A stretch of 47,798 bases of DNA, taken from contig CALQLF020000016.1 of assembly GCA_943331345.2 (NCBI GenBank), positions 1 through 47,798 of the forward strand, read 5' to 3'. The stretch comes from Candidatus Planktophila lacus (GTDB lineage Bacteria; Pseudomonadota; Gammaproteobacteria; Steroidobacterales; Steroidobacteraceae). The notes under the pieces are model-generated. The model did not search any database. It had not been told where the DNA came from and was given only the letters and a program-made list of their open reading frames with translations. Within the stretch, counting starts at the first letter, position 1. Each line of letters opens with the position of its first letter. Position numbers and translations under genes: made by a program. Below, one piece after another: positions 1 through 42,382 of the stretch.

Positions 1-46
1 GGGCAGCGAGTGCATCCGGCACGCGGTCGAGACGAACGGTGGTCAT
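1..46 (-). CDS. Partial CDS, sixth gene of the catabolic operon (cut by window edge)
   Basis: Only the first 15 codons are visible: an ATG at 46-44 opens a frame reading MTTVRLDRVPDALAA and continuing off the left edge. The ATG overlaps the TGA of the upstream amidohydrolase in an ATGA arrangement, the same coupling used by the genes before it, so it is very probably a real gene of the same operon. Too little is present to assign a family. Confidence 0.5.
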   Translation of the reverse strand, partial: MTTVRLDRVPDALAA

Positions 47-1401
47 GGCTCCGTCAAATCCGCAGTCGGTGGCGGCGGCGCGCCAGCCGCTACGTCTTTG
101 CCCAAACGCGCGCCGTAAGTGCTGACGCGCCAGCCCGGCGGATCGCGTCGCGGAGCATCCGGCGTCAAATCCACGGCACGCCCACCGAGCAGCACCTGCT
201 TCAAGCGGGCCGCATCACCGAGCACCGTCACATCCTTGGCCGGATCACCATCCACCACCAGCAAGTCCGCCAGACGGCCCGGCAACACTTCGCCCACCTT
301 GCCCGCCATTCGCATGGCAAAGGCATTGGCCTGGGTAGAGCACTGGATGGCCTGCAACGGTGTCAGGCCGAGTTCGCGCACGAACACTTCCATTTCGCGG
401 TAATGCCAATCGCCATAAGGCGTGATGGAAAACCCGGATTCGCTGCCACAGAGCAGCGGCACGCCAGCGTCGTAAGCGCGGCGCAGCATCTGCGCACTGT
501 CGGCAATCTCGCGGCGGAACATGGCACGCACGGTGTCGTCCGCACCGATACGGGCACCGTAGTCGGCGAGGTTGGCCAGGAAGGTGAAGACCGGCATCAC
601 CGGCGTGCGGTGCTTCACCAGCACCTCGAGCGCGCGGTCGTCCATCAAGGTGGCGTGCAGGATGAGATCCATGCCGGCTTCAACGCAATCGACAATGGCG
701 CCAGCGCCGCGACAATGCCCGAGCACCGGGATGCCGAGTTCATGGGCGGCATCGCAGACGGTACGGAGTTCCTCGCGCGACCAGCTCTGTACTTCGCCAC
801 CTAGCGGGTGCCGCGGCACCAGACCAGTGACGTGCACTTTGATCCAGTCGACACCGCCTTTGATCTGGCGGCGCACCTCGGCAATGATTTCGTCGCGACC
901 GGCAACCACCTTGCCGTAACCCATGACGCCACGGTCCGGAATGAGCCGGCCTGCCGTGCCACCAACGCTAGTCCACAGCGCATAGCCGCCGGTGGAGATG
1001 CGTGGGCCAGTGGTAATGCCAGCTTCGATGGCATCGCGCAGGTCCACACCAATCTCGAAGATGGAGTCGGCATCCATGATGCCGGTAACACCAGATTGCA
1101 GCACGCGTCGTGCGTTGCGCGCCGCCGTGATGGCAGCGAGCCCGTGCCGACGGTGGAAGAACAACTCGTCGTTCGAGTTCGGTTCGTCGAAGCTGATATG
1201 ACAATGGCCGTCGATAAGACCAGGCATGACCGTGCAACCAGCCACGTCCATGGTGTGTACGCCCGGTGTTTGCGCGGCTTGTGCTTCGGCTGCTCCACCG
1301 GTGGCAGCAATCTTCTCGCCGAGAATGAGAACCGACTCCGCACGCGGGGCAGCACCGGTGCCATCGATGACACTACCGTTGGTAATTAGCGTGGCGTTCA
1401 C
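43..1401 (-). CDS. Amidohydrolase family protein (imidazolonepropionase-like)
   Basis: A 452-residue metal-dependent hydrolase of the amidohydrolase superfamily with a GTG start that overlaps the previous stop (GTGA). The small N-terminal beta domain is followed by the barrel with the HxH metal pair at H66/H68 (DGHCH), a lysine at about K188 (WIKVH) where the family often carries a bridging carboxylated lysine, H229 and H249. The usual last ligand, the Asp of a GTD motif, reads GSES (E321), so the catalytic acid looks like Glu instead. There is no signal peptide, so it is probably cytoplasmic. Its position behind a P450, an SDR and another amidohydrolase suggests hydrolysis of a ring or amide/ester-type intermediate in the same catabolic route. 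The family is clear; the substrate is unknown. Confidence 0.88.
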   Translation of the reverse strand: MNATLITNGSVIDGTGAAPRAESVLILGEKIAATGGAAEAQAAQTPGVHTMDVAGCTVMPGLIDGHCHISFDEPNSNDELFFHRRHGLAAITAARNARRVLQSGVTGIMDADSIFEIGVDLRDAIEAGITTGPRISTGGYALWTSVGGTAGRLIPDRGVMGYGKVVAGRDEIIAEVRRQIKGGVDWIKVHVTGLVPRHPLGGEVQSWSREELRTVCDAAHELGIPVLGHCRGAGAIVDCVEAGMDLILHATLMDDRALEVLVKHRTPVMPVFTFLANLADYGARIGADDTVRAMFRREIADSAQMLRRAYDAGVPLLCGSESGFSITPYGDWHYREMEVFVRELGLTPLQAIQCSTQANAFAMRMAGKVGEVLPGRLADLLVVDGDPAKDVTVLGDAARLKQVLLGGRAVDLTPDAPRRDPPGWRVSTYGARLGKDVAAGAPPPPTADLTEP

Positions 1402-2402
1402 GTCCAGTCCTTTCGGCCCAGCAACCGGCGCGCGTTATCAGCCAACCAGACAGGAGCTTCCAGCTTGCCGCCACTGGCGGGCTGGTCCCAACCGGCAAAA
1501 TTCGTTCCCAGGACGAGGCGCTCACGGCCTACCTGCTTTTCCAGCAACTCGACAGCGTCGTCGCTGTGCAGGTGGTTATCGAACCAAAGCTTCTGCAGAC
1601 GCTGCATGAAGGCACCCGGCTCGCGCAGTTCTGCTGAGGCCCAAGGACGCTTCGCGGCAGCTTCGCTAAAGCGACCGGCAAGCAAGGCAATGGCGCCACC
1701 ACCGTGACTGACGCACAAGCGCAAGTCCGGATGACGATCGACGACGCCGCCGTAGATGAGCGTGCCGACAGCAATGGTTTCCTGCGCAGCGAAACCGATG
1801 AGCAGGTCCATGTCGTAATGGGATAACGGCGGGAATGCCGCGGGGCCGTCGATGCCCGCAGGCGACGGGTGCAAGTACAGGGGAACATCCAGCGCCGCAC
1901 AGCAACGGTAGAAATCGTCAAGCGCCGGCGAATCTAGACGGGTACCGAACTCGGTGCCTATGCCTGCACCCCAGAGGCCGAGCTCACCAACTGCGCGGCG
2001 CAGTTCCTCAGCGGCGGCGGCTGGCGATTGCATAGGCAGTGCAGCGAGGCCGGCGAGCCTGCCAGGGTAACGGCGTACCAGTGCTGCCAGCACGTCGTTG
2101 TGGCGACGACAAAAGGCAACCGCCGAGGGAACATCGATGAAGTGGAAATACGTCAGCGGGTTGGGCGACAGCACTTGGCAGTCAATGCCGGCGCGATCCA
2201 TGGCGGCAAGGCGTACCTCGACATCCATGAATGGGCTGCCGCGATAACGCACGCCATGCAGGCGATAGCCCCCGGCACGAAACAACGGGCGACCATCCTC
2301 CGCCACCGTCAGTTCCGGACCGTGCTCACCCGCGGCCCCGAAAGTTTCTTCCAGCACTACGTGAGCGTGGAAATCGATGATGCGCGCGGCTTGCCAAGAC
2401 AT
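1398..2402 (-). CDS. Amidohydrolase-2 (ACMSD-like) metal-dependent hydrolase/decarboxylase
   Basis: A 334-residue TIM-barrel protein of the amidohydrolase-2 group that includes aminocarboxymuconate-semialdehyde decarboxylase. It starts IIDFHAHV with the HxH pair at H12/H14, has a later barrel His in YLHPSP and another in VSHGGG, and ends near GTNFAGWD, where the family's metal-binding or catalytic acid lies. Known relatives decarboxylate or hydrolyse aromatic-ring cleavage products and other beta-keto or enol acids. The ATG overlaps the SDR stop (ATGA), and its own stop overlaps the next GTG, so translation is coupled on both sides. Cytoplasmic by sequence. The reaction is inferred from family only. 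Confidence 0.88.
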   Translation of the reverse strand: MSWQAARIIDFHAHVVLEETFGAAGEHGPELTVAEDGRPLFRAGGYRLHGVRYRGSPFMDVEVRLAAMDRAGIDCQVLSPNPLTYFHFIDVPSAVAFCRRHNDVLAALVRRYPGRLAGLAALPMQSPAAAAEELRRAVGELGLWGAGIGTEFGTRLDSPALDDFYRCCAALDVPLYLHPSPAGIDGPAAFPPLSHYDMDLLIGFAAQETIAVGTLIYGGVVDRHPDLRLCVSHGGGAIALLAGRFSEAAAKRPWASAELREPGAFMQRLQKLWFDNHLHSDDAVELLEKQVGRERLVLGTNFAGWDQPASGGKLEAPVWLADNARRLLGRKDWT

Positions 2403-3193
2403 CAGAGAACTCCCTGCACGATACCGCCGTCTACAGGCAACACCGTTCCCGTGAGGTAACTGGCGCGTTGCGAGGCGAGGAACACAATCACGTCGGCAAT
2501 CTCGGCCGGGTCAGCAAAGCGGGCCAGTGGCACTTGCGCCAGTATTTCCGCTGCCACCACGGCTTCCTCACACTGCCGCTGACCAGCGCGCGCCGCCAGC
2601 ATTTGCCCAACGCGGTCGGTAAGCGTCCAACCGGGTGCGACGGTGTTCACCAGCACGTTATCCGGACCCACTTCCGCTGCCAGCGTCTTGGCCCAGCCGG
2701 CCACCGCGAGACGCAGACTGTTCGACAGCATGAGGTCGGGGATGGGCTGCTTCACCGAATATGAGGAGACATTGACGATGCGTCCCCAGCGCTGTGCGCG
2801 CATGGCAGGCAGCACGGCACTGGTGGTGCGGACAGCCGACATGAGGGTGAGTTGGAATGCCCGCTGCCAATCGGCCTCGGTGAGCCGTGCCGACGGCCCC
2901 GGCGGCGGACCGCCCGCGTTGTTCACCAACACATGGACGGTGCCATAACGTGCCAGCACGGCATCGACCATGCCACCAATCTGGGTTTCGTCTGCGAGGT
3001 CGCAAGGGAGCACCAAGACCGGTTGCCCGTGGGCAGCCTCGAGAGCCGCCGCCGCAGCGGCCAAACCGTCCGCATCGCGAGCGCAGAGCGCCAACAGCGC
3101 GCCCTCCCGGGCCAATGCATGCGCTGTCGCCAGGCCTATACCTTGGCTGCCGGCGGTGACCAATGCCACCTTGCCCTTGAGACCGAGATCCAT
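2402..3193 (-). CDS. SDR family oxidoreductase with non-canonical active site
   Basis: A Rossmann-fold short-chain dehydrogenase/reductase of 263 residues from the ATG at 3193; the frame also allows an ATG at 3226, but 3193 directly precedes the first beta strand and fits the usual family N-terminus. The cofactor motif is TAGSQGIG (residues 13-20), NNAGG is at 91-95, the catalytic-serine strand NVSS is at 141-144 and the APG motif at 187-189. The YxxxK pair is absent: the corresponding stretch reads LMLSN (154-158). An SDR subgroup with an S-N in this position exists, so this is not necessarily an error, but the mechanism cannot be assumed classical. Lies 59 bp after the P450 (26 bp if 3226 is used) and overlaps the next gene. 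Confidence 0.9.
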   Translation of the reverse strand: MDLGLKGKVALVTAGSQGIGLATAHALAREGALLALCARDADGLAAAAAALEAAHGQPVLVLPCDLADETQIGGMVDAVLARYGTVHVLVNNAGGPPPGPSARLTEADWQRAFQLTLMSAVRTTSAVLPAMRAQRWGRIVNVSSYSVKQPIPDLMLSNSLRLAVAGWAKTLAAEVGPDNVLVNTVAPGWTLTDRVGQMLAARAGQRQCEEAVVAAEILAQVPLARFADPAEIADVIVFLASQRASYLTGTVLPVDGGIVQGVL

Positions 3194-3252
3194 GCTGTTA
3201 CTGTTCCGCGACCGTGACCCGCGCAACGAAGTATGCGCCGCTGCATTGTCCG

Positions 3253-4518
3253 TTATCGGTGGGCGATTTCAAGTGTGGTTGCAGGGAGGCTGGCGAGGCC
3301 GCGGAACAAAAAGCCGGGGCGCCACGGCGGGCTGTCCACCTTCACGGCAATACTAGGCAGCCGCCGGGCCAGCGTCTCGAACGCAATACGCCCTTCCAGC
3401 CGCGCCAGCGCCTGACCAATGCAGTGGTGAATGCCGCCGCCGAAGGACTGGATGCGTACATCCTTGCGGGTGATATCGAAGCGATCGGGCTCCGGAAACA
3501 TGGAAGGGTCGCGGTTGGCCGCAGCCACTATGCACAACACCCGCTCGCCGCCTTTCACGTAGGTGCCATCTACTAGTGTGTCTTCCAGCGCCGTCCGGTA
3601 AGTAGCCTGTAGCGACGACTCAAAGCGCAGCACCTCTTCGACGACGCCAGCCGCCAGAGCCGGGTTCGCCACCAATAGCGCCCACTGTTCCGGGTAGCGC
3701 TGCAGCGTGTACAGCCCATTGCTGATGAGATGGGCCGTGGTTTCAAAACCTGCACCGAACATGGCAATGACGATAGTGACCATCTCGCGGTGCGACAGTG
3801 CATCGCCGGTTTCGTCGCGGACGGAAGCCAGCGCGGAAGTGAGGTCGTCACGGGGGTTGGCCTTGCGTCGGTCGAACAAGGCGCCGAAATATTCGTAGAG
3901 GTAATCCATCTGACGATTGGCCAGCGCCAATTCGTCAGCGTTCAGCACGCGCGTTTCAAACACCAGAAACGCTTCGGCGATGGCCCGCGTCAGCTTCGCC
4001 ATGCTGTCCGGCGTGCGTTCGCTCTCTTCCACGCCGAGCAAGTCGAACATGACCAGCACGGGCAAAGGATAAGCGAGGTCGTAAACCACATCGCCCGTAC
4101 CGCCCTTCGCGAGCCAAGCGTCAACAAGGCCATCTTGCAATGCCTGAATACGCGGCGCCATGTCCGCAATACGCTTTGAAGTGAGCGCAAAGCTGACTAA
4201 CTTGCGCAGCCGCGTATGGTGCGGCGGGTCTTGCATCAAGAACACTTCCGACAACCAACGGTAGGCGCTCTGGCCCAGCACGTCGAAGTCGGGCCCGTAG
4301 AATAACTGGATATTGCGGATGAAATTGCCCTGGCCAAAAGCCGGGCTGGCCAGCACTTGCCGGCAATCCAGATGGCGCGTGGCCACGTGGTAACCGCCTG
4401 CCGCCGCGTGCAGGCCGGGAACGGCCTGCAAACGACGGTAGGTGGGGTAAGGGTCTCGCACCAGCGCTTGGTCAGCGGGGTCGAAGCGATAAGTCTCTTC
4501 GGCCGCGCTGCTGCTCAT
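3253..4518 (-). CDS. Cytochrome P450
   Basis: A soluble bacterial-type P450 of 421 residues, about the normal length for the class. The I-helix oxygen-activation motif reads FGAGFETTAH (254-263), the K-helix ExxR is E295-V-L-R298, and the heme-thiolate loop is FGGGIHHCIG with Cys366. It would hydroxylate or otherwise oxidise a hydrophobic substrate using a ferredoxin or other reductase partner, none of which is encoded in this window. It follows the TonB receptor by 30 bp and precedes the SDR, which fits hydroxylation then alcohol oxidation. The CYP family and substrate cannot be told by eye. Confidence 0.95.
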   Translation of the reverse strand: MSSSAAEETYRFDPADQALVRDPYPTYRRLQAVPGLHAAAGGYHVATRHLDCRQVLASPAFGQGNFIRNIQLFYGPDFDVLGQSAYRWLSEVFLMQDPPHHTRLRKLVSFALTSKRIADMAPRIQALQDGLVDAWLAKGGTGDVVYDLAYPLPVLVMFDLLGVEESERTPDSMAKLTRAIAEAFLVFETRVLNADELALANRQMDYLYEYFGALFDRRKANPRDDLTSALASVRDETGDALSHREMVTIVIAMFGAGFETTAHLISNGLYTLQRYPEQWALLVANPALAAGVVEEVLRFESSLQATYRTALEDTLVDGTYVKGGERVLCIVAAANRDPSMFPEPDRFDITRKDVRIQSFGGGIHHCIGQALARLEGRIAFETLARRLPSIAVKVDSPPWRPGFLFRGLASLPATTLEIAHR

Positions 4519-4548
4519 GCGAAAACCCTTGCGGTTAGCAGTTGTCGC

Positions 4549-6765
4549 TTAGAACTTGTAACCAACCGTCAGACCGTAGGTACGCGGCGGTGCCACCGAG
4601 CCTACGCGAATGCTGCCATAGAGCGGTGCGGTGATGATGTTGTTGGTGACGATGAACTCGTCGCCCACATTCTTCACCCAACCACCCACGCTCCAGTGCT
4701 CGCTGCTGTCGGTCCACGTGGCGGCCACGTTGCCGATGGTGTAGCTGGACTGCACCGCGTCCGCGTTGTTGAACTCGGTGAAGTACACCGTGCCCTGATA
4801 CGCAGCTTCGGCGTGCAGAGCCAACGTGCCCGAACCCACCGGCATTTCGTACGTCAGGCCGGCAAAGGCCGTGGACGTCGGTGCGTTCTGCAGATGGTTG
4901 CCCGACAGGTCGACCAAGCTGAAGCCCTGACGGTAGTCACCCGTGGTGAAGTCCGTGTACTTCGCCGACAGCAGGGTGGCGTAGAAGTCTGCGGTGAGCC
5001 CTTCCGCCAACTTGGCGCGCAGTTCAAGTTCGAGACCATAGTTGCTGGCCGAAGCGGCGTTGACCGTGGTCACCACGCTGTCCGCACCGACGAAGCCAAC
5101 CTGCAGGTCCGAGTACTTGTAGTTGAACACCGCAGCGCGGTATTCCACGTTGCCACCCGAGGCACGGCCCTTGACGCCGGCTTCGATGCTCCACACGTAT
5201 TCCGGATTGATGACAGCGTTTTGGCTACCGACATTGATGACGCCCGACTTGAAGCCGCGTGTCAGGCTGCCGTACCACAGCTGTCCGCCTTCGGTGGTGT
5301 ACTCAAGGTTGAAACGCGGCGTGAGGGCATCCCAGGACTTGGCCTTGTCCGTCGGAATGTTGGCACCCAGCGCATCGAAGATGAAGGAGCCTGCACCCTC
5401 GCGCTTCTCGTGGTTGTAGCGAGCGCCCACCGTCAGCTTCAGCTGGTCGTTGATAGGGTAGGTGCCCTGCAGGAAGGCGCCGTACGCGTCCGTCTTCACG
5501 GTACCCAGCTGCCAATAGTTGCCGGCATTGAAGAAGTTGGCAGGCAAGCCGAACAGCAAGCCGAGATTGGTCAGCGGCACCTTCACGGAGCCGAACAGCT
5601 TCTCGTGGAAGTACATGACGCCACCGAGCAGGTCCCACTTGCCAGCCGTGCGGCTGAAGGTGAATTCCTGGCTCCAGGAATTGCTGTCTTCGTCGTAGTT
5701 GTTCTGGCCGAACATGTTCACGTCGGAGACGTCGAGGTCGTCGCGGGTGAAGCGCTTGAAGTCGCGCCAAGCGGTGACGGACTTCACGTCCCAGTCGCCC
5801 AACTTGAAGTCCACGAGGCCGGTGAGGCCGGTACCGTGACGCTGGTTGATGGGCTCCTGGTCGGAGTAGATGTTGCGCAGGTCCGGCGCTTGGCCACGCG
5901 TGGCGTAGTAGTCGAAAATGGTCTTGCCGCCGAGCAGGTTGTGCCCGAGGCCGTTTTCCGGCGTGGCGGTAGTGCCGAAGTAGTGAAAGGCGTAGTTGTT
6001 GTCGTCTTCCTTGAAGTAGTCGGCGATGAGGGTCGCCTTCACATCATCGCTGGGGGCGAACGACACCATGGCGCGCACGGCCACCGCATCGCGGTCGTCG
6101 ATCTGGCTGCCGGTGAACAGGTTCTTGCCGTAGCCATCACGCTGGTCCCACTTCACGGCCACGCGGGCGCCGACGGTGTCGGACACCGGGCCACCCACTG
6201 CGCCTTCGAAGGTCTTGGCAGCGAAGTTGCCAACCGTCAAACGGCCGTAGCCGTTCAGGGTGTCGCCGGGCTTGCGGGTCACGAGGTTCACCACGCCGGC
6301 GGTAGCACCGCGGCCGTAGGTGGTGCCCTGCGGGCCGCGCAGCACTTCCACCTGTTCCAGGTCGAAGAAGCCAGCGAGCTGTGCGGACGGACGCGCAATC
6401 ATGGCGCCGTCCTGCAGGAAGGCCACGGCACCGTCGGCACCGAGGTCGATGCTGGTCATGCCAACGCCGCGGATGAAGGTGCGGTTCACACCGAACTGGT
6501 CACCGACGGACAAGTTGGGCACGGCCGTGGCGAGGTCGGAGATGTCTTCGATGCCACCGGCACCGAGCTGGTCCGCCGTGACGGCCGAAATGGCGGCCGC
6601 CGTGCTGTTGATGGAGTTCGCCTTCTTGGTGGCGGTGACGATGATTTCCTCAAGGCCGTCGCTGGCAGCCTGTTGCGCGGACGCGCCGGCGGCAGCGAGC
6701 AGCAGGGCAGCAGCAACGGCACCCTGCAGGGCGCGAGAAATGATAGGACGGGTGGGTGTGGACAT
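4549..6765 (-). CDS. TonB-dependent outer membrane receptor (first of catabolic operon)
   Basis: A 738-residue outer-membrane receptor. The N-terminus has a signal peptide (about residues 1-31, ending ASAQ-A) followed by a TonB-box-like EEIIVTA segment near residue 40, then a plug domain with PNLSV and an IRGVG motif, and a barrel ending in the aromatic TVGYKF, a standard outer-membrane sorting end. The type matches receptors for hydrophobic or cyclic catabolic substrates in sphingomonads and related groups better than SusC. As first gene of the operon it probably imports the compound oxidised by the P450. The reverse strand is also largely open, which is a codon-use shadow, not a gene. Confidence 0.94.
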   Translation of the reverse strand: MSTPTRPIISRALQGAVAAALLLAAAGASAQQAASDGLEEIIVTATKKANSINSTAAAISAVTADQLGAGGIEDISDLATAVPNLSVGDQFGVNRTFIRGVGMTSIDLGADGAVAFLQDGAMIARPSAQLAGFFDLEQVEVLRGPQGTTYGRGATAGVVNLVTRKPGDTLNGYGRLTVGNFAAKTFEGAVGGPVSDTVGARVAVKWDQRDGYGKNLFTGSQIDDRDAVAVRAMVSFAPSDDVKATLIADYFKEDDNNYAFHYFGTTATPENGLGHNLLGGKTIFDYYATRGQAPDLRNIYSDQEPINQRHGTGLTGLVDFKLGDWDVKSVTAWRDFKRFTRDDLDVSDVNMFGQNNYDEDSNSWSQEFTFSRTAGKWDLLGGVMYFHEKLFGSVKVPLTNLGLLFGLPANFFNAGNYWQLGTVKTDAYGAFLQGTYPINDQLKLTVGARYNHEKREGAGSFIFDALGANIPTDKAKSWDALTPRFNLEYTTEGGQLWYGSLTRGFKSGVINVGSQNAVINPEYVWSIEAGVKGRASGGNVEYRAAVFNYKYSDLQVGFVGADSVVTTVNAASASNYGLELELRAKLAEGLTADFYATLLSAKYTDFTTGDYRQGFSLVDLSGNHLQNAPTSTAFAGLTYEMPVGSGTLALHAEAAYQGTVYFTEFNNADAVQSSYTIGNVAATWTDSSEHWSVGGWVKNVGDEFIVTNNIITAPLYGSIRVGSVAPPRTYGLTVGYKF

Positions 6766-6819
6766 GAGCGTAGGTTCCCCCTCGGCAGCCCGGTACCGGT
6801 CGGCACCTGTCGGCTATCT

Positions 6820-6852
6820 ACTATAAGTATGTTTTTTTATACCATCAGTCAA
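6820..6852 (-). promoter_or_regulatory. Candidate promoter of the TonB receptor/P450 operon
   Basis: The only AT-rich patch in the 193-bp space between the receptor and trmL. On the minus strand there is TTGACT (6852-6847), then 17 bp, then TACTTA (6829-6824), with a better-looking TATAGT at 6825-6820 that sits 21 bp from TTGACT. Neither pairing is ideal, so the exact promoter is uncertain. A run of seven T on the plus strand lies in the spacer. The rest of 6766-6958 shows nothing recognisable. Confidence 0.3.
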
Positions 6853-6958
6853 TACGCACAGACGTTGGGAAGGAAAACACGCCTTTCGTTTTGCAGTGCA
6901 CTATCGGTAACGTTGCGCCCAAGCAACACCATTAGGACGACTGCAATCGATTGGTGGG

Positions 6959-7429
6959 TCAGGCCCCGCTGAATGCCTGTTGGCGCCACGCCTCGTAGGC
7001 AACGATAGCCACCGTGTTGGACAGGTTCACGCTCCGATTTCCCGGAATCATCGGGAGCTGCAGGATGTCCTCGGGCGCGAAACGAGCGAGATCTTCCGCC
7101 GCAATGCCTGGCCCTTCGGCGCCAAACACCAGCACGTCCCCCGGCTGGAAGGCCACCTGGTCGTAGCGGCGCGTCCCGCCCGTCTCCACGGCATAGCGCC
7201 GGCCGGCCCCGTTTTCGTCGAGCCAGCGCCAACAGGCGGCGAAATCCGCATGTTCGCGCACGCGGGCCAGCTCGTGGTAGTCGAGCCCGGCCCGGCGCAC
7301 GTGCGGGCTTTGCAGGGAAAAACCCAAGGGGTGTACCAAGTGCAGCGTGCAGCCGGTGTTGGCGCACAGGCGGATGGCATTGCCGGTATTCGGCGGAATC
7401 TGGGGCTGCAGGAGAACGAGATGGAACAT
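6959..7429 (-). CDS. trmL: tRNA (cytidine(34)-2'-O)-methyltransferase TrmL
   Basis: A SPOUT-class methyltransferase of 156 residues (E. coli TrmL has 157) that 2'-O-methylates the wobble nucleotide of tRNA-Leu isoacceptors. It starts MFHLVLLQPQIPPNTGN; the frame stays open far upstream, but this Met is the conserved family start, and the upstream extension would run through the divergent gene. The knot motifs are NTGNAIRLCANTG, then GAEGPGI, then IPMIPGNRSVNLSN at the C-terminus. It is divergent from the dihydroorotate dehydrogenase gene with only 19 bp between start codons. No Shine-Dalgarno can fit, because a TATAGT box lies 6 bp before the ATG, so a leaderless mRNA is likely. Confidence 0.95.
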   Translation of the reverse strand: MFHLVLLQPQIPPNTGNAIRLCANTGCTLHLVHPLGFSLQSPHVRRAGLDYHELARVREHADFAACWRWLDENGAGRRYAVETGGTRRYDQVAFQPGDVLVFGAEGPGIAAEDLARFAPEDILQLPMIPGNRSVNLSNTVAIVAYEAWRQQAFSGA

Positions 7430-26539: not shown

Positions 26540-32760
<6,221 letters not shown>

Positions 32761-33984: not shown

Positions 33985-36093
33985 TTACAGCGCCTTGAAG
34001 CGCACCGCCTGGCCACCACCGGGCGCGAGGCGCAGCGTCAGGCGGTCAGCGGCCGTCACCACGCGCTGCTCCACCACGTACTCGTGACGGTGGTCGTTGC
34101 GGAAGTCCGTGGCGTCACCATCGCGATAGATTTGCGCTTGGTAGCGCTTGCCCGGTGCCAGGAAATCGAGCGCCACTTCCAGCGTCCGCGCGCTTTCGTC
34201 GGTGGCTGCGCCCAAGTACCAGTCCGCACTGTTGCGGTCTTGGCGCGCCATGGTCACGTAGTCCCCCACGGCACCGTTCAGCACACGCGTCTCCGCCCAG
34301 TCCGCCGGCACGTCCTTGATGAACTGGAACGCCTTCGGCTCGGCCAGATAGTGCTCGGGCAGGTCGGCGGCCATCTGGATGGGGCTATAGAGCAGCACAT
34401 AGAGCGCCAGCTGGCGCGCCACCGTCGATTCAATATCTCGCCCACCGCGACCCTTCAGGCTCAACACGCCCGGCGTGTAATCCATGGGTCCACCCAGCAT
34501 GCGCGTGAACACCAAGTTGATCTCGTGCTCCGGCGGGTTCCCGGGTGCACCCCAAGCGTTGTACTCCATGCCGCGGGCCCCTTCGCGCGCTACCCAGTTC
34601 GGGTAAGTACGGCGTAGGCCCGTGTCCTTGATGGGCTCATGTGGGTTCACGGCAATGTGCCGCTTCGCCGCTTCTTGCACCACGTACAAATGGTGGCGGC
34701 TCATGCGCTGACCATCGTGCCATTCAAAAACAATACTGCCATCGGCGGCGCGGTCCTGCACGCCACCAGCGTCCGCCACGTAGCCGGTCTTCACCGCATC
34801 TATGCCCAGCCGCTGGTAGAGGTCTAAAGCCGCCGGCAGCTGCGGTTCGTAGTTCGCAATGTTCGCGGACGTCTCGTGGTGGCCGATGAGGTGGACGCCC
34901 TTCTTCAAGCCATAGGCCGAGAGTGCTTCGATGTCGAAATCCGGGTAGGGTTTCGTGAAACTGAAGGTCCAACCGTTGGCGAACCAATCGCCATCCCACC
35001 CTTCGTTCCACCCTTCAACCAGCACGCCGCGAAACCCGTTGGCGGCTGCAAAGTCGATCATCTTCTTGGTGTAGGCGGTGGTGGCGCCATGCTTCGCACC
35101 CGAAGCCCAGCTTTGTTCGTCCAGATGCATGCCCCACCACACCCCCACGTACTTGTGCGGCTTGAACCACGACACGTCGCCGAGTTTATTGGGCTCGTTC
35201 AGGTTCAGGATGATTTTGGCGGCAGCATAGAGACCGGCTGCATCGTCCGCTATCTGGACAGTGCGCCACGGCGTGTTGAATGGCACCGCACGCACGACTT
35301 TTGCGCCACTCGATGAGGGCGATAGATTGGCACGGAAACGCGTGCCTTCCACACGACGCAGCCACATGGCGGAATAGTCGACTAGCGCCGCTTCATGGAA
35401 GGCCAGATGCAGACCGTCATTGCGACGAATGGTGATGGGCGTGTGTGCTTGCGCTACTTCACGCAGCGGGGTGCGTTGATAGAGATATTCGTAGCGGTTC
35501 CAGTCGCCGGCTGGAATCCACCAGGCCTCACCATCGCCGGCCACTGCGAACTCGGTCAGTTCTTCAGCGATACGCGCTTCCTTGAGGTTCGGCTGTACGG
35601 GAAATTCGTAGCGGAAGCCGAAGCCATCGTCGAACAAACGAAACACCACATCAAAGCGCCGCGCCAGCGAGCTGGTTTCCTGAAACTGCACGCGCAGTTC
35701 GCGGTAGTGGTCACGCACATAACGGCTTTCACCCCAAGGCTGTTCCCAAGTGCCGTCCTGGTCGCGCGTACTGCTACCGATGATGGCGAAGTTTCGCTCC
35801 AGCTTCGGGGCGTTGGTGAGCAGGAAACCCAGTCGAGAGCTTTCCAGTACCGGTTGCCCACGGCGCAGCAAGCGGTAATCCGGGCGGCCCTCGCCGTTGG
35901 TGGTCACCTCCACCGTCAGTACGTTGCCCGGAGAAGCCGCCGTGGCAACGACATCGCCTGCATGCGCGAGTGGCATGCTGGCGAACAAGGCGAATGCGAC
36001 GGCACAGAGCGTGCCGACGAAATACAACCTTTTGAATGCTGCCTGCGCCGACAAAGGACCAGCAAAACCCAGTTGATCGAAGCCAGTCTTCAT
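33985..36093 (-). CDS. Glycoside hydrolase family 97 alpha-glucosidase (SusB-like)
   Basis: A 702-residue exported glycosidase from ATG 36093, four bases after the amylase stop. The signal region ends at LAHA-GD near residue 46 of this frame. The GH97 N-terminal beta-sandwich is followed by the barrel with WWGMHLDEQSW, FRGVLVEGWNEGW, HHETSANIANYE and the REGARGMEYNAWG segment carrying an active-site Glu of the inverting alpha-glucosidase type, then a C-terminal beta domain. It would release glucose from the non-reducing end of malto-oligosaccharides in the periplasm. Last gene of the halogenase-amylase-GH97 set. Confidence 0.94.
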   Translation of the reverse strand: MKTGFDQLGFAGPLSAQAAFKRLYFVGTLCAVAFALFASMPLAHAGDVVATAASPGNVLTVEVTTNGEGRPDYRLLRRGQPVLESSRLGFLLTNAPKLERNFAIIGSSTRDQDGTWEQPWGESRYVRDHYRELRVQFQETSSLARRFDVVFRLFDDGFGFRYEFPVQPNLKEARIAEELTEFAVAGDGEAWWIPAGDWNRYEYLYQRTPLREVAQAHTPITIRRNDGLHLAFHEAALVDYSAMWLRRVEGTRFRANLSPSSSGAKVVRAVPFNTPWRTVQIADDAAGLYAAAKIILNLNEPNKLGDVSWFKPHKYVGVWWGMHLDEQSWASGAKHGATTAYTKKMIDFAAANGFRGVLVEGWNEGWDGDWFANGWTFSFTKPYPDFDIEALSAYGLKKGVHLIGHHETSANIANYEPQLPAALDLYQRLGIDAVKTGYVADAGGVQDRAADGSIVFEWHDGQRMSRHHLYVVQEAAKRHIAVNPHEPIKDTGLRRTYPNWVAREGARGMEYNAWGAPGNPPEHEINLVFTRMLGGPMDYTPGVLSLKGRGGRDIESTVARQLALYVLLYSPIQMAADLPEHYLAEPKAFQFIKDVPADWAETRVLNGAVGDYVTMARQDRNSADWYLGAATDESARTLEVALDFLAPGKRYQAQIYRDGDATDFRNDHRHEYVVEQRVVTAADRLTLRLAPGGGQAVRFKAL

Positions 36094-36097
36094 GGCA

Positions 36098-37858
36098 TTA
36101 CTCCGCTGCACAGGCCACAAACCCGAAAGCCGGCAATTTCACGCGATAGCTCCCCGGCTCACGCGCGGTAGCGGCACAAGCCCCGACCAACGAATGGAAC
36201 TGCACGGAACTGCGCTCGACCACCACGTTTGCTTCCACCGGCTCGGCACTGGTGTTGAACGTCAGCAGCACTTCCTTGCCAGTGGTCGGCGAAAAGCGCG
36301 ACACTGCAAACAGCCCCGGCTTCGGCTCGGAATGACGCGGCACTTGGCGCCCGCGCTGAAGCGCATCACTGCCCGCACGCGCAGCAGCCAGCTGTTGAAT
36401 CAAGCGGTACAAAGGATGGGCAGTATCGAAGTTGCTCATGGCCGTTGTGGCGGTAGTGCCGAGCAGAGGCTGCTCGTTGTAGCTGGCCGTCAGGCTCGGG
36501 AACATGTCCTGACGAGCCGCCTGGTCGTTGCCATACCCCGCGAACCCCTGTTCATCGCCGTAGTAAACGGTAGGCACGCCGCGCAGCAGCAGCAGCAAGG
36601 CATGGCCTAGCTTCATTCGCGCCAGCACTTCTTCGTTCGCGGCCTTCGGGCGTGCGCGCTGAATGAAATACGCCAAGCGCCCATCGTCATGATTGCTGAT
36701 GAATGTGGGCAGCGTGAGCGCCTGCGCCTCACCACCCGCATAAAGCACATCCGCCTCGAACAAGCGCGCCAGCAAATCGGTGCCATCGTTGCCCGCCAAG
36801 GTGCGGCGTACAGCCGCGGCAAAGCCGAAATCGATGACGCCCGGCAGGCCGGCAATGCGCGTCCAACGCGCCGTCAGCGCCGGGTCCATTTCACCCGTGG
36901 CCACTTCCCCGAAGATGTGGAAGTTCGGAATGCCGGCCAAACGAGCACGCTGTTCCATGGCGGGCGCGAATTCCTGCCAGAACTCCGGGTTCACGTGCTT
37001 GGCCGTGTCGATACGAAAGCCATCGACGCGGAACTTCGTAATCCAATCGCCATAGATATCAATGAAGCCCTGCACCACCCGCGGGTTGTCAGTGTCGAGG
37101 TCATCCAGACCGAAGAAGTCGCCCAGTTGCGAGTTTTCCCCTTCGAACGTGGTGTTGCCACGGTTGTGGTACCAGCGCACGTCATTCAGCCACGCAGGCA
37201 CCTTCACGTTTTCTTCGCCCGCGGGCACGTAGGCGGTATAGGCCTGTTCCGGGTAGTCCGCCTTCGAGCGGTAAGGGCAACCAATGCGCGGGCATTCGCG
37301 GTAGGTAATGACATCGGCCGTGTGGTTGGCAATGATGTCGAGGTAGACCTTGATACCGCGCGCATGGGCGGCATCGACGAAAGCCTTCATCTCTTGGTTC
37401 GTGCCGTAGTGGGCATCCACCTTCGTGAAGTCGGTAATCCAGTAGCCGTGGTAGGCCGCGCTTTCATCGCCCACCGGCCCTTGCACCGGCTTGTTCTGGT
37501 AGATGGGCCCCAACCAGATAGCGGTAGCGCCTAGTCCTTGAATGTAGTCGAGCCGCGAAACCAGGCCTTTCAAGTCCCCGCCGTGAAAGAAGCCTTTGCT
37601 GGTGGGGTCAAAGCCGGTAGTGAGACGGTCACCCTGAAGACCGCCAAGGTCATTGGCGGTATCGCCGTTTTCGAAGCGGTCCGGCAGCAGGAAATAGATG
37701 AACTCTTCTCCCGGCGAACGCGAGAGAAAGGCGGCCGGGGCAGGCGTTGCAGCCGAGGCAGACGATGCAGCGGGTGCTGTCGATGCGCCAACAGCAAACG
37801 CGGCGGGCGTCAGCATGGCGCAGGCGGAAACCAGTAACAGGGCGCGGAGGCGATGCAT
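36098..37858 (-). CDS. Secreted alpha-amylase family protein (GH13)
   Basis: 586 residues with a signal peptide (about 1-22) and an Ala/Ser/Pro-rich linker to residue 45. The four GH13 regions are visible: DIIANHTADV (I), GFRIDTAKHV with the nucleophile Asp (II), FGEVATG with the acid/base Glu (III) and FISNHDDGR (IV). The FIYFLLPDRFENGD beginning and DYIQGLGATAIWLGPIY are typical of cyclomaltodextrinase/amylase-like bacterial enzymes. It should cleave internal alpha-1,4 bonds of starch or maltodextrin outside the cytoplasm. It lies 15 bp after the halogenase gene. Confidence 0.95.
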   Translation of the reverse strand: MHRLRALLLVSACAMLTPAAFAVGASTAPAASSASAATPAPAAFLSRSPGEEFIYFLLPDRFENGDTANDLGGLQGDRLTTGFDPTSKGFFHGGDLKGLVSRLDYIQGLGATAIWLGPIYQNKPVQGPVGDESAAYHGYWITDFTKVDAHYGTNQEMKAFVDAAHARGIKVYLDIIANHTADVITYRECPRIGCPYRSKADYPEQAYTAYVPAGEENVKVPAWLNDVRWYHNRGNTTFEGENSQLGDFFGLDDLDTDNPRVVQGFIDIYGDWITKFRVDGFRIDTAKHVNPEFWQEFAPAMEQRARLAGIPNFHIFGEVATGEMDPALTARWTRIAGLPGVIDFGFAAAVRRTLAGNDGTDLLARLFEADVLYAGGEAQALTLPTFISNHDDGRLAYFIQRARPKAANEEVLARMKLGHALLLLLRGVPTVYYGDEQGFAGYGNDQAARQDMFPSLTASYNEQPLLGTTATTAMSNFDTAHPLYRLIQQLAAARAGSDALQRGRQVPRHSEPKPGLFAVSRFSPTTGKEVLLTFNTSAEPVEANVVVERSSVQFHSLVGACAATAREPGSYRVKLPAFGFVACAAE

Positions 37859-37873
37859 GGCAGATATCCCGGG

Positions 37874-39382
37874 CTAGTTGAGAGGGGCGGCTTTCGCGAA
37901 GCGCGCAATCCAATCGGTATGGGTCGGCAGTTCTTTGACACGCTGCCGCGTGAGCTTGCCGACGGTGTCCACGAACTCGACGGCTTCAGCGTCGCTCAGA
38001 GCATTGGCTAGCGGGTTATGGCCTTGCGGCACTACACCCTGGCCCAGGAACACTTGCAGCCAGCTGTCTTCGGCGAACAGTTCGTTGTTCACGCGCATGA
38101 TGCGGCCGTTGGCACGGAACACGGCCATCTTCTGCTGCAGTTCAGGCGGCAGCACCAAGTGGCGCATGTAGTCCCACAGGGCGCCTTGGCGTTCGTTTGC
38201 GTGGTAGTGCAGCACGATGAAATCGCGGATGCGCTCGAACTCGAATAGCGTCTGGGCGTTGTATTCGTCGATGTTGGCCTGAGCGAAGTCGAGGTCCGGG
38301 AAAAAATTGATGAGCCGCGCGATGTTCGAGTGCACCAAGTGAATACTGGTGGACTCGAGCGGCTCCAGAAAGCCACTCGCCAAGCCCAAGGCAATACAGT
38401 TGCGGTGCCAGAACTGCCGGCGGTGGCCCGTGGTGAAGCGAATGATCCGCGGCGGCGCGAGGGCGCGACCGTCCAGCCGTGCCATCAAGCCCGCAGCCGC
38501 TTCATCTTCGTTCATGAACTCGCTGCTGAACACGACGCCATTACCAATGCGGTGCTGCAAGGGAATGCGCCACTGCCAGCCCGCTTCGTGCGCCGTGGAG
38601 CGCGTATAAGGCTCGGCGGGGTGCGGCAGTTCGCACGGCACGGCCCAAGCACGGTTCGCGGGCAACCAATGCGACCAGTCCACATAGGGCACGCCGAGGG
38701 CTTGCCCCAGCAGCAAGGAACGGAAGCCGGAGCAGTCGATGAACAGGTCGCCACCGACCAGTTCGCCACTTTCGAGGCGCACGGACTCGATGAAGCCGTC
38801 CGTAGCGCGCAGCTGCGTATCGACAATCTTGCCTTCGATACGCTTCACACCGCGCTGTTCGCACAGCCCGCGCAAATAACGCGCATAGAGCCCGGCGTCG
38901 AAATGGAACGCATGCGTCAGCGCTTGCAGGTGGCTGCCCGGCGGCGGTTCACCGCGCAGGAACTTGCCAGCGAGTGCTGCTACACCGGAAATAGAGTAAT
39001 CATCGATAGGGCCAGCCTGACCGAGCTTGCGCGCCCGCAACCAGTACTGCCAAAAAGACGCCAGCCCGAGGTCTTTGCCAACGGAACCGAAGGCGTGCAT
39101 GTAGGCTTCGCCCGCACGCTTCCAGCCTACGAACTGAATACCCAGCTTGATGGTCCCTTGCGTGGCGCGAAGAAAAGCGTCTTCGTCGAGGCCCACCATG
39201 GCGTTGTAGGCGCGAATAGGCGGAATGGTGGCCTCGCCCACCCCGACGATGCCGATGTCGTCGGACTCCACCAGCGTGACGTTGACGCGTTCGCCAAAAA
39301 TCTTGTTGATGGCGGCGGCAGCCATCCAGCCGGCGGTACCACCGCCAACGACTACTACCCGACGGACTGCCCGGTCATCCAT
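37874..39382 (-). CDS. Flavin-dependent tryptophan halogenase family protein
   Basis: A 502-residue FAD-binding protein. The dinucleotide motif is VVVGGGTAGWMAA near the start, followed by the family's GVGEATIPP, KLGIQFVGW (conserved catalytic Lys) and WQWRIP, the WxWxIP motif that distinguishes halogenases from monooxygenases. It uses reduced FADH2 from a separate reductase that is not in the window. Such genes recur next to TonB receptors in carbohydrate loci of xanthomonads and caulobacters; some homologues halogenate free indoles in vitro, but the physiological substrate there is unknown. It has GGAGAG before ATG 39382 and follows the receptor gene across an intrinsic terminator. Confidence 0.93.
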   Translation of the reverse strand: MDDRAVRRVVVVGGGTAGWMAAAAINKIFGERVNVTLVESDDIGIVGVGEATIPPIRAYNAMVGLDEDAFLRATQGTIKLGIQFVGWKRAGEAYMHAFGSVGKDLGLASFWQYWLRARKLGQAGPIDDYSISGVAALAGKFLRGEPPPGSHLQALTHAFHFDAGLYARYLRGLCEQRGVKRIEGKIVDTQLRATDGFIESVRLESGELVGGDLFIDCSGFRSLLLGQALGVPYVDWSHWLPANRAWAVPCELPHPAEPYTRSTAHEAGWQWRIPLQHRIGNGVVFSSEFMNEDEAAAGLMARLDGRALAPPRIIRFTTGHRRQFWHRNCIALGLASGFLEPLESTSIHLVHSNIARLINFFPDLDFAQANIDEYNAQTLFEFERIRDFIVLHYHANERQGALWDYMRHLVLPPELQQKMAVFRANGRIMRVNNELFAEDSWLQVFLGQGVVPQGHNPLANALSDAEAVEFVDTVGKLTRQRVKELPTHTDWIARFAKAAPLN

Positions 39383-39402
39383 CTGCGTTCTCTCCGCGCA
39401 AG

Positions 39403-39435
39403 AAAAACCCCCGCCGGCACGATGGCCGACGGGGG
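39403..39435 (-). terminator. Intrinsic terminator after the TonB receptor gene
   Basis: On the minus strand CCCCCGTCGGC-CATCGT-GCCGGCGGGGG is followed immediately by TTTTTCTT: an 11-bp stem with one G-U pair and a U-tract (39407-39403). It lies between the receptor stop and the halogenase ATG, so downstream genes depend on partial read-through or a promoter of their own. Confidence 0.85.
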
Positions 39436-39453
39436 TATTTCAACACTGAACGC

Positions 39454-42174
39454 TTACAGCTTGTAGCTGGCGCCCACCAGCACGGTCCGACCGTAGTCCT
39501 GGTAGTTCACCACTTGCTGCAACTGGCCGTTGTTGTAGGTCGAGAACGGCTCGTTCGTCACGTTGTTGAACTGCAGCAGCAGGCTGAGGCCCGCGGCCTT
39601 GCCTTCCTGGAACTCGTAACCGAACTGCAGGTCGACAATGGACTCGCCCTTCACGTAGCGCAGGGTGCGGCCGTTGCCGAAGCCGGCGACCTCACCGAGG
39701 AACTTCGAGCGGTTACGCTGGCTGGCACGGGCCGAGTAGCCGTTCTTCTCGTAGTACGCCGTGAGGTTCCACACCTTCTCCGACAGGCCCGGGAGCGGAG
39801 TCGCCGGGTCCGACGGGTTCGGCTTGATGGAGCTGTCCGTGAACGACGCGTTCGCCGTCAGGCCGAAGTCCGCGAGGGCCTCGGTGAAGAGCGAGCCGGG
39901 CAGCGAGAAGGCGAGTTCCGCACCTTGGATGTTGCCACCCTTGCCGTTCTGCGGAATGGACACCAAGCCCTGAGACAGAGCCGGGGCAGGGCCCGTGTAC
40001 GTGAAGCCGGTGAAGTCATAGACGGCCGGCTGGTTGTAGATGTAGCTCTTCAACTTCTTGTGGAACAGCGCCACCGACACGTAGGCCTTGTTGTCGAAGT
40101 ACTTCTCGTAAGAGAGGTCCAGCGCATCGGCCACCCAAGGACGCAGCTTCGGGTTACCGCCGCCACCGCTCCAGGGCGAGTTGTTGATGTTGGTGCTGGC
40201 CGCAAACGTGCTGTTGTAGCCGTAGTTGATGGCCGCCTTCATTTCGTCCATGCGGGCACGGGCCATTTCGCGGGCCGCGCCGAAGCGCACCACGTGGCCG
40301 CCGTCGAACTTGAACGACAGGTTCAGGCTGGGCAGCACGTTGCTGTAGCTGTCGCTACCCGTCACCGGCACCACCGCCACGCCAGCGGCGAGAGCGGAGG
40401 AGTCCTGCTTGGTCTTCACCAGCTGGACGCCGAAGTTGCCGCTCAGGGCAGCCGCGCCGACCTGGCTGTCGATGGTGGCGCGAACGAAGCCGGTGGTGAC
40501 CTTCTCGTTCACTTCCCAGCTCTTGGTGGTGACATCGCCGTTGGTGTTGCGCAGCAGGTCGTAGACGCCGCCCTTGATCAGCTTCTCCGGGTCGTAGCTG
40601 ATCATGGCGCCGATACCGATGAAGTCGAGACGCGTCGGACGCAGCAGGTACTGCGACGGCACGGCCACGCTAGCACCCACGGAACCGCGCTTCACGCTCA
40701 GGAAGAACTCGTTCACGTCGAGGTTCTTGGAGCGGTCGGTGTAGTCCACGCCCACTTCCACCGAGTTGATGGCGCCTTCCAGCACCTTCTTGGTGGACAG
40801 ACGGAACTGCATCAGTTCGTCCTTGGCGTCCGGGTAGTTGGCGTAGCCGTCTTGGCCGCCCGGAGGCGAACCCCAGCCCTGCGGGCTGGTGAGGAAGATG
40901 GAGGCCGGGTTGGCGTAGTCCAGCGTGCTGCTGAACGTGGCACCCTGCGTGCCCGACATGGTGAAGCCAAGGTTGTCGAACGGCCCAGTACCGCCACCAC
41001 GGCTGGTGCCGGCGTTGCTCTCAATGAGCGAGTCCTTGCGGTCCACCTTGGAGTAGCTGAGGTCGGCGGTGGTGGTCCAGGAATCTGCTACCCATTCGTT
41101 CTTCCAGCCCAGCGCAGTGACCTTGCTGTTGCGGATGTACTTGTGGTTGTTGATGACGCCCTTCACGCCATTGAAGGTGCCCGTCTGCACGAGGCTGTCG
41201 CTGGCGGTGTAGCCCGGCTGCAGTGAAGCGGCCGACCACCACAACGGCATTTCAATGCCGCGCTTGATCTGGTCGTTGTCGAACTTCGAGTAGTACAGGT
41301 CGAGCGTGCTGGTGTAGTTGTCGGTCGGCTTGTACTCAACGGTACCGATGATGCCCGTGCGCTTCAGTTCGTTCGAAGCCACGAACGGCTTGGCGCCGCC
41401 GATGACCTTGTTGCCCGCAGGGCCGTCCGGGTAACCCCAGGCTTCCCACTGGTTGGCCTGACCAGGCGAAGAGATGGTGGCGATGCCGAGGGCCACGCCC
41501 AGGGTGTCGTCAGCGAACTGGTTGATGTACGAAGCACTGGCGCGGTAGCCGATGTCCTTGGAACCGGCGTTCAGCTTGCCCTGGTCGTTCTTTTCACCGC
41601 GGACGTTCACGACGACAGCGCGGCGGCCGTATTCCAGGGGGCGCACGGTGCGCAGGTCCACGGTGCCCGACAGGCCCGAACCGACCATGGAGGCGTCCGG
41701 CGTCTTGTAGACCACCACGCCGCTGAGCAGCTCGGACGGGTACTGGTCGAACTCGACGCTGCGGTTGTCGCCCGAGGACACCTGCTGGCGACCGTTGAGC
41801 AGAGTGGTCGAGAAGTCGCCAGCCATACCGCGGATGGAGATGTTCTGTGCGCGACCATCGAGGCGCTGCGCGGTGAGGCCCGGGAGGCGCGCGATGGACT
41901 CTGCGATGGAGTTGTCCGGCAGCTTGCCGATGTCTTCGGCCGACACGGCTTCGACGATGGTCTCCGCGTCTTTCTTCAGCGCGATGGCGCTTTCGATGGC
42001 GGCGCGAACGCCGGTGACGACGACGGTTTCGACGTCATCGGAGGCGGCTTCCGCGGCCGGGGCGGCGTGCGCAACGCCGGCAGTGGCCATCAGGAAGACG
42101 GCCCAACCGGCCGTGGCGGTACGGGCCATGCCGGTTTCGGCGGCGGCCTTATTCAACTTCTTGGACGTCTTCAC
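39454..42174 (-). CDS. TonB-dependent receptor for alpha-glucan oligosaccharides
   Basis: A 906-residue outer-membrane receptor starting at GTG 42174 behind a GAAGGGG site. The signal peptide ends near AHAA, followed by a TonB box (VETVVVTG) and a plug with DNSIAESIARLPG, NISIRGM and YKTPDASMVGSGLSGTVDL, the pattern of sugar receptors in Caulobacter and Xanthomonas (MalA/SuxA-like group). The barrel ends VGASYKL. It is divergent from the intracellular glucosidase gene across a 281-bp control region and is the probable maltodextrin importer of the locus; the ligand is inferred from the neighbours. Confidence 0.94.
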   Translation of the reverse strand: MKTSKKLNKAAAETGMARTATAGWAVFLMATAGVAHAAPAAEAASDDVETVVVTGVRAAIESAIALKKDAETIVEAVSAEDIGKLPDNSIAESIARLPGLTAQRLDGRAQNISIRGMAGDFSTTLLNGRQQVSSGDNRSVEFDQYPSELLSGVVVYKTPDASMVGSGLSGTVDLRTVRPLEYGRRAVVVNVRGEKNDQGKLNAGSKDIGYRASASYINQFADDTLGVALGIATISSPGQANQWEAWGYPDGPAGNKVIGGAKPFVASNELKRTGIIGTVEYKPTDNYTSTLDLYYSKFDNDQIKRGIEMPLWWSAASLQPGYTASDSLVQTGTFNGVKGVINNHKYIRNSKVTALGWKNEWVADSWTTTADLSYSKVDRKDSLIESNAGTSRGGGTGPFDNLGFTMSGTQGATFSSTLDYANPASIFLTSPQGWGSPPGGQDGYANYPDAKDELMQFRLSTKKVLEGAINSVEVGVDYTDRSKNLDVNEFFLSVKRGSVGASVAVPSQYLLRPTRLDFIGIGAMISYDPEKLIKGGVYDLLRNTNGDVTTKSWEVNEKVTTGFVRATIDSQVGAAALSGNFGVQLVKTKQDSSALAAGVAVVPVTGSDSYSNVLPSLNLSFKFDGGHVVRFGAAREMARARMDEMKAAINYGYNSTFAASTNINNSPWSGGGGNPKLRPWVADALDLSYEKYFDNKAYVSVALFHKKLKSYIYNQPAVYDFTGFTYTGPAPALSQGLVSIPQNGKGGNIQGAELAFSLPGSLFTEALADFGLTANASFTDSSIKPNPSDPATPLPGLSEKVWNLTAYYEKNGYSARASQRNRSKFLGEVAGFGNGRTLRYVKGESIVDLQFGYEFQEGKAAGLSLLLQFNNVTNEPFSTYNNGQLQQVVNYQDYGRTVLVGASYKL

Positions 42175-42382
42175 TTGGATGCCCCTTCTCTTGTGTACGT
42201 TGCTGGCGAATCTGGTGGAAACCGACAACCAACACGAGGGGAGCCACACGCGCACTACGGCCTTGCGGCGGTGCGCCAACTTCAACCCCCTCGCTGTTGC
42301 TCCAACGCCACGACTTCAATGGTCGCGGCTGCCGGAATAAAGCAGGAAGAACCTTAGACCCGTGCCGCTTCAAGGGAAACAT

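Follow-up and report, generated by a model that had tools for sequence, protein, structure and literature searches.

A likely hybrid of two catabolic gene clusters in a TonB-dependent receptor–P450–amidohydrolase operon of a gammaproteobacterial metagenome genome

INTRODUCTION

Does a tidy row of catabolic genes encode one pathway? This question is raised by the left end of contig CALQLF020000016.1 of the assembly GCA_943331345.2, filed as Candidatus Planktophila lacus and placed by GTDB in the Steroidobacteraceae, where genes for a TonB-dependent receptor (TBDR), a cytochrome P450 (P450a), a short-chain dehydrogenase/reductase (SDR1) and two amidohydrolases (AH2 and AH1) follow one another on the minus strand. 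The whole contig (C16, 47798 nt) was analysed and is called the window; its genome (G000) comprises 3.17 Mb in 184 contigs. An earlier reading of the window, made from its letters and open reading frames (the sequence-only reading), had taken the gene order for one linear front end of a degradation pathway, running from import through hydroxylation and oxidation to decarboxylation or hydrolysis. We found instead that the two halves of this order belong to two different clusters, B (TBDR and P450a) and A (SDR1, AH2, AH1 and further genes), and we conclude with moderate confidence that the operon is a hybrid of the two, in which cluster A was most likely inserted between P450a and a mutase gene after being permuted between LEH (a homologue of limonene-1,2-epoxide hydrolase) and SDR1. 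The labels P450a, P450b, P450c, AH1, AH2, cluster A and cluster B were coined in this analysis.

RESULTS

Two clusters, each conserved without the other

Scanning genome contigs with P450a gave 25 loci. Genes in the relatives were called with a simple codon-usage caller of our own, not with a standard gene finder, and Pfam supports the families in the examples scanned. Homologues of TBDR and P450a lie in one stretch in 18 other loci (L009–L023, L026 and the plasmids L056 and L057), hosted by gammaproteobacterial metagenome-assembled genomes (MAGs) and Sphingomonadales. Compared with the proteins of L007, a locus of genome G468 that carries all five window genes, the receptors show 46–80% identity and the P450a proteins 51–65%, with 87% for that of L009. 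The two genes are adjacent, or have one gene of the metallo-β-lactamase (MBL) fold between them, in 13 of the 18 loci, and three or more genes separate them in L010, L014, L017, L020 and L057. Where the stretch is long enough, the usual partners are an acyl-CoA ligase, an iron-containing alcohol dehydrogenase (Fe-ADH) and a TetR regulator, accompanied by varying subsets of one of two groups, either MeaB, an SDR, an enoyl-CoA hydratase and a B12 acyl-CoA mutase of two subunits, or CaiB, a flavin monooxygenase (FMO-like by Pfam) and a quinone-oxidoreductase-like protein.

In G015, a genome of the window's genus, cluster B consists of TBDR, P450a, an SDR, an enoyl-CoA hydratase, the two-subunit B12 acyl-CoA mutase with MeaB, Fe-ADH, an AMP-dependent acyl-CoA ligase, TetR, a thiolase, a FadB-like protein and an acyl-CoA dehydrogenase, and neither AH2 (E ≤ 1e-50) nor LEH was found in this genome at the cut-offs used. 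Across the window's family, P450a was detected in six of 100 genomes (E ≤ 1e-60). The Sphingomonadales form of the cluster (Blastomonas, Erythrobacter, Sphingopyxis, Polymorphobacter, Novosphingobium EMRT-2 and others) resembles the window in its TBDR (52–58% identity) and P450a (51–56%), which are adjacent or one MBL-fold gene apart in nine of 12 loci, but differs from it in having the flavin monooxygenase, acyl-CoA ligase, Fe-ADH, TetR and CaiB as partners, with no AH1 or AH2 match of at least 80 bits in the stretches fetched.

The second set of genes, cluster A, is made up of P450c, LEH, SDR1, AH2, AH1, P450b, SDR2, ThuA and SDR3, often with a vicinal oxygen chelate (VOC) protein, a major facilitator superfamily (MFS) transporter and MarR, and is seen in 18 loci (L046–L050, L055 and L089–L100). 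AH2 is present in eight of 100 genomes of the window's family (E ≤ 1e-50), of which three, counting that of the window, belong to the same genus and the other five carry AH2 at 70–75% identity. In these five no P450a was found at E ≤ 1e-60, and AH2 stands together with P450c, LEH, SDR1, AH1, P450b, SDR2, ThuA and SDR3, save that L048 lacks SDR2, L049 is cut by a contig end inside AH1 and L050 is reordered; VOC, MFS and MarR are present in two of the five. Among 397 genomes of the family to which a Sphingopyxis genome belongs, 12 gave matches to P450b, in every case two of them, corresponding to P450c and P450b; these two genes are neighbours in 15 of the 17 cluster-A loci that show both. SDR1 is directly preceded by LEH in 15 of 18 loci, the exceptions being L050 (reordered), L099 (neither gene found) and L100 (contig end). 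The window follows the cluster-A order for SDR1, AH2, AH1 and the start of P450b, and all seven genes from SDR1 to SDR3 are present in L007.

A cluster on the megaplasmid pTHN of Novosphingobium sp. THN1 (NZ_CP028348.1, about 204–215 kb) likewise holds LEH, SDR1, AH2, SDR3, ThuA, SDR2, P450b, P450c, AH1 and MFS, at 36–66% identity to the query proteins, together with an old-yellow-enzyme homologue. Unlike the window, it is arranged in two oppositely oriented runs, adjoins a CoxLMS-type molybdenum hydroxylase and has no match to P450a within the fetched 29 kb; we found no published function for it. In 29 kb fetched from an Azospirillum plasmid, AH2, SDR1, SDR2 and ThuA are present but P450 genes are not, which suggests that the P450 part of cluster A is exchangeable. 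We also observed CoxL-type molybdenum hydroxylase genes near cluster A in seven of 18 loci (L055, L047, L094, L096, L097, L098 and L099, of which L055 and L098 are near-identical here) and one weak CoxS match in L095; this hydroxylase is possibly part of the cluster-A pathway. The paralogous P450s on other contigs of G000 (L051–L053) were considered as a second cluster and rejected, as the cluster A and B proteins match only single genes there, at 24–50%.

The joints between the clusters

The uninterrupted cluster-B site is seen in G015 (L009), where 31 bp separate P450a from the next gene, that for the mutase small subunit (mutS), which is on the other strand and has the remaining cluster B behind it. 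In three genomes, those of the window, L007 (contig C148 of G468) and L008 (contig C20 of G052), P450a is joined to SDR1, which constitutes the left joint. The right joint, LEH|mutS, is found in L104 (contig C188 of G052), which reads MFS<, P450c>, LEH>, mutS<, mutL<, SDR> and has mutase subunits 91–96% identical to those of G015. G052 carries both joints, so P450a and mutS, which touch in G015, are there attached to SDR1 and LEH, which are mutual neighbours elsewhere, and it is the LEH>SDR1> adjacency typical of cluster A that has been split to give the two ends of the insert. As the adjacencies of G015 and G052 are exchanged in this manner, the insertion of a cluster A permuted at LEH/SDR1 is the simplest account. 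Cluster A would have inserted behind P450a in a single event with SDR1 as its left and LEH as its right end, whereby SDR1, AH2, AH1, P450b and the later genes would fall behind the receptor/P450a promoter.

Beyond AH1, L007 continues with a second, divergent P450 (P450b, 399 aa), SDR2, a ThuA-like gene and SDR3, followed on the opposite strand by Dabb, VOC and the end of an MFS-like transporter, at which the contig ends. In keeping with an insertion, the MFS pieces are complementary, with the end of L007 holding residues 310–399 and L104 residues 2–272 of the query, and no second close MFS copy was found in G468 or G052, although paralogues at approximately 40% exist. Another contig of G468, C253, starts in a gene 45% identical to its positional counterpart in G015 and continues with MeaB, Fe-ADH, ligase, TetR, thiolase, the FadB-like gene and acyl-CoA dehydrogenase, which is the G015 order with one extra SDR after TetR.

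Several observations weigh against an insertion. No single contig spans the whole island, and the right joint is known from one 5.4-kb contig of a genome that is 75% complete. Searches of G468 gave no mutase, LEH or P450c, an absence that could stem from a single gap in the assembly between C148 and C253 or from gene loss. TBDR and P450a are present in G000, and the distal cluster-B genes are seen in G015 and G468; searches of G000 found no mutase, no close ligase homologue, no LEH and no further P450b or P450c, genes which this genome may have lost or which may be unassembled. Finally, the G+C content is nearly equal on the two sides of the joint (0.624 and 0.641), and base composition was accordingly discarded as a mark of recent import.

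The foremost rival to an insertion is a reciprocal exchange or inversion that broke cluster B after P450a and cluster A at the LEH–SDR1 boundary. It would leave the hybrid nature of the operon unchanged and alter only the event, and both joints of G052 are also expected from it. However, an inversion requires a duplicated MFS, with one copy on the far side of SDR3 (its position in L007) and the other next to P450c (its position in L104), whereas G468 and G052 show one close fragment each, and these are complementary; this point is not conclusive, since each fragment is at the end of its contig and G052 is incomplete. On balance we consider an inversion unlikely. Insertion also admits a bolder version, to which we give less than an even chance and which we put forward tentatively, namely that cluster A moved as a circle that opened between LEH and SDR1, integrated into the other cluster and was captured by the receptor–P450 promoter, its core of SDR1, AH2, AH1, P450b and P450c, each with a lost or changed catalytic residue, jointly performing an undescribed ring- or side-chain-cutting chemistry.

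Layout of the operon

The positions of the genes and joints are collected in Table 1. The gene content and order given by the sequence-only reading were borne out by the open reading frames and Pfam, as was the spacing of 30 bp between TBDR and P450a. The start/stop fusions that it reported from the SDR onward hold in part: AH2 and AH1 overlap by 4 nt (GTGA), as do AH1 and P450b (ATGA), but SDR1 and AH2 share 1 nt in TGATG and not the ATGA reported, and P450a and SDR1 are not fused, 59 bp lying between the P450a stop and the SDR1 ATG. This ATG is at 3193, with an alternative TTG at 3226 in the same open frame. A further gene beyond the contig edge had been predicted correctly; it runs off the contig and L007 shows what follows. 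The search of the window assembly for the remainder of P450b returned only the 46 edge bases and one 34-base match elsewhere. A class-wide search for P450b gave no match in 369 genomes, and is uninformative, having no positive control and a set that included the window genome with its P450b cut off.

Table 1 Features of the operon at the left end of the window
Feature	Position	Strand	Description
Conserved region upstream of TBDR	6767..6860	-	Contains TTGACTGATGGTATAA, which is also present in L007 and L008
TBDR, 738 aa	4549..6765	-	TonB-dependent receptor; Pfam Plug and TonB_dep_Rec_b-barrel; 81% identity to L009 cluster-B receptor; head of cluster B
P450a, 421 aa	3253..4518	-	Canonical bacterial P450; Pfam p450, 1.8e-31; 87% identity to L009 P450; cluster B
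Left joint P450a/SDR1	3194..3252	-	Cluster B to cluster A; no gene called, no terminator-like site; also in L007 and L008, not in L009
SDR1, 263 aa from ATG	2402..3193	-	Pfam adh_short_C2; cluster A
AH2, 334 aa	1398..2402	-	Amidohydro_2 (PF04909) related to ACMSD; best solved relatives ACMSD chains, 1.8e-36; cluster A
AH1, 452 aa	43..1401	-	Amidohydro_1 (PF01979) related to Xaa-Pro dipeptidase/Arg carboxypeptidase; best solved relatives 2qs8 and 3mtw; cluster A
P450b, first 15 codons	1..46	-	Cut by contig edge; ATG at 46; 14/15 residues and 96% of 46 nt match L007 P450b start

The same order recurs in other genomes, as the sequence-only reading had proposed to check. All five genes are found in identical order in L007, at 94.5–98.5% protein identity to the window, and L008 keeps the window order at 93–97% identity until its contig ends inside AH2.

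Active-site residues

The SDR Tyr/Lys pair (YxxxK), the metal ligands of ACMSD, the catalytic triad of LEH and the acid–alcohol pair of the P450 I-helix are the residues on which catalysis in these families depends. P450a retains the heme Cys, the ExxR motif and the I-helix sequence AGFETT in 21 of 21 aligned sequences, a set picked by similarity alone that includes the window. Heme Cys and ExxR are likewise kept by P450b (18/18 rows) and P450c (19/19 rows, 18 of them distinct), families for which Pfam p450 was confirmed in one member each. The I-helix acid of these two is replaced, by His in all 18 P450b rows and by His in 17 and Phe in one of the 18 distinct P450c sequences, and P450b is distant from the solved P450s (best match 1.9e-06). 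As a side observation, the Streptantibioticus cattleyicolor plasmid pSCAT (L058, 11989–13188) encodes a P450b/c-like P450 with 46% identity to P450c, followed by what reads as a ferredoxin-like gene and located beside an apparent non-ribosomal peptide synthetase biosynthetic cluster.

For SDR1, all 18 aligned rows from relatives, 17 of them distinct, have Ser in place of the catalytic Tyr and Arg in place of the Lys; the window is not one of these rows, and its translation reads the same, LSNSLR. SDR2 and SDR3 keep Tyr and Lys in 18 of 18 rows each. LEH keeps the motifs TERxD and WRDYFD in 15 of 15 rows (14 distinct), and its best match is a solved limonene-1,2-epoxide hydrolase (PF07858) at 1e-23 with both catalytic motifs, a likeness that concerns the LEH of other genomes; the gene was not found in G000.

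AH2 resembles the ACMSD/LigW/LigY branch of PF04909 over an alignment of approximately 246 residues and keeps four His, the HxH motif and two more, but has Asn where that branch has the metal-site Asp, in 20 of 20 rows (19 distinct); N301 of AH2 corresponds to D291 of ACMSD (4igm). Since one of four outgroups has Asn with a similar GWDQ motif and one has Glu, the other two having Asp, this replacement is a trait of a broader subfamily rather than of the cluster. A distant Amidohydro_2 protein on plasmid pLA3 of Novosphingobium pentaromativorans US6-1 (L125, 286–1338) has the same Asp-to-Asn change with GWDQ and also points to a wider subfamily. AH1 keeps HxH, Lys and two His, and its catalytic Asp is replaced by Glu (E321) in 19 of 19 untruncated rows, against Asp in four of four outgroups.

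Two of the steps assigned by the sequence-only reading are affected by these data. The oxidation is doubtful because SDR1 is without its catalytic Tyr and Lys throughout, and decarboxylation or hydrolysis must be left open because AH1 and AH2 both carry a changed catalytic Asp.

Selection and transcription signals

The ratios of non-synonymous to synonymous substitution rates (dN/dS) between the window and L007 were 0.071 for TBDR, 0.031 for P450a, 0.031 for SDR1, 0.013 for AH2 and 0.043 for AH1, and those between the window and L008 were 0.025–0.081 over four genes, AH1 being compared only with L007. All five genes are under purifying selection. The low ratios at 93–98.5% identity, with the same order kept in L007 and L008, indicate that this order is more than chance, and both halves thus appear to have been kept under selection after joining.

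A scan of positions 3100–7100 detected one terminator-like site, inside the TBDR gene, compared with 3.4 expected by chance; none lies in the TBDR–P450a and P450a–SDR1 gaps, and the later junctions overlap. From this spacing and the terminator-free gaps, a catabolic operon running from TBDR to AH1 and on is probable, and the cluster A genes would now be under the control of the cluster B receptor/P450a promoter and co-regulated with it. The conserved region upstream of TBDR is a possible promoter/operator of cluster B; it is 100% identical between the window and L008 along a 76-bp stretch. A looser pattern (TGAC, 3–5 bases, GGTA) also occurs upstream of TBDR in L012 and L013, with a near form seen by eye in L009, and matches four other places in the 21 sequences scanned. 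No palindrome upstream of TBDR is common to the genomes compared.

Three further candidates at the P450a–SDR1 joint were set aside. A promoter is not claimed, as one weak match stands against 0.9 expected by chance. Conservation of the joint (74/76 nt between the window and L007) is not claimed as a signal either, as sliding windows show other stretches equally conserved. The open frame that crosses the joint in L007 and L008 gave only weak, chance-level matches among the loci compared when considered as the remnant of another gene.

These signals bear on the reading that the locus is one coherent, co-evolved pathway, in which TBDR imports, P450a hydroxylates, SDR1 oxidizes and AH2 and AH1 cut, the joint being an ordinary operon variant for one substrate. 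The fused order in three genomes, the low dN/dS of the genes compared and the terminator-free gaps speak for it, but TBDR and P450a keep other partners in 18 loci, the remainder stands without P450a in 18 loci, SDR1 has lost its Tyr and Lys, and the LEH/SDR1 split and the uninterrupted site of G015 point to later joining. With each half conserved without the other, we rejected the single linear pathway as the principal interpretation and rate it as still less probable than an inversion. An assembly or binning artefact, i.e. a chimeric contig at P450a–SDR1, might be suspected from draft assemblies in 184, about 310 and about 350 contigs with contig ends close by, but was rejected as very unlikely, since the layout of P450a C-terminus, 59-bp gap and SDR1 start is common to three genomes that differ by synonymous distances of 0.23–0.68 and stem from at least two differently named projects.

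Other loci in the window

On the minus strand at 26540–30832, the window encodes an intein-containing GyrB (1430 aa), in which Intein_splicing and LAGLIDADG_3 domains separate the Toprim domain from the GyrB C-terminal domain. An α-glucan use locus at 33985–45145 contains GH97, two α-amylase-family proteins, a tryptophan halogenase, a second TonB-dependent receptor and an esterase, and adjoins a LacI-like gene recognized by reading of the sequence only.

DISCUSSION

From the protein families, a route can be proposed for the hybrid operon and its parent clusters. TBDR would import a hydrophobic cyclic compound, P450a would hydroxylate it, and cluster B would take the product to an acyl-CoA and β-oxidation, with the B12 mutase serving a branched acyl group. 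Where cluster A is complete, P450c and LEH would make and open an epoxide, P450b, SDR2 and SDR3 would oxidize further, and AH1 and AH2 would cut the ring or side chain (C-C or C-O/C-N). Our best guess at the substrate is a terpenoid-like compound, cyclic and unsaturated, which the two clusters may or may not share.

The sequence-only reading had recognized no described pathway with this combination of genes, and none is apparent in the titles and abstract openings of the open-licence literature. In the same type of source, open-licence PMC articles at the level of titles and abstract openings, no published description of cluster A or cluster B is apparent, which is no proof of absence; nor does one appear in some titles and abstract openings on strain THN1. 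A term search of the main text of PMC6167471 gave no match, and the passages seen of PMC12997858 deal with lignin dimers and not with cluster A or B.

A neat gene order need not equal one pathway, as the order at this locus resembles a product of recombination. The comparison also defines two conserved clusters, neither of which we found described in print, that occur in metagenome genomes of Gammaproteobacteria and in sphingomonads. In cluster A, five enzymes with non-standard active sites are kept in both of these groups, and their chemistry is testable in Novosphingobium sp. THN1.

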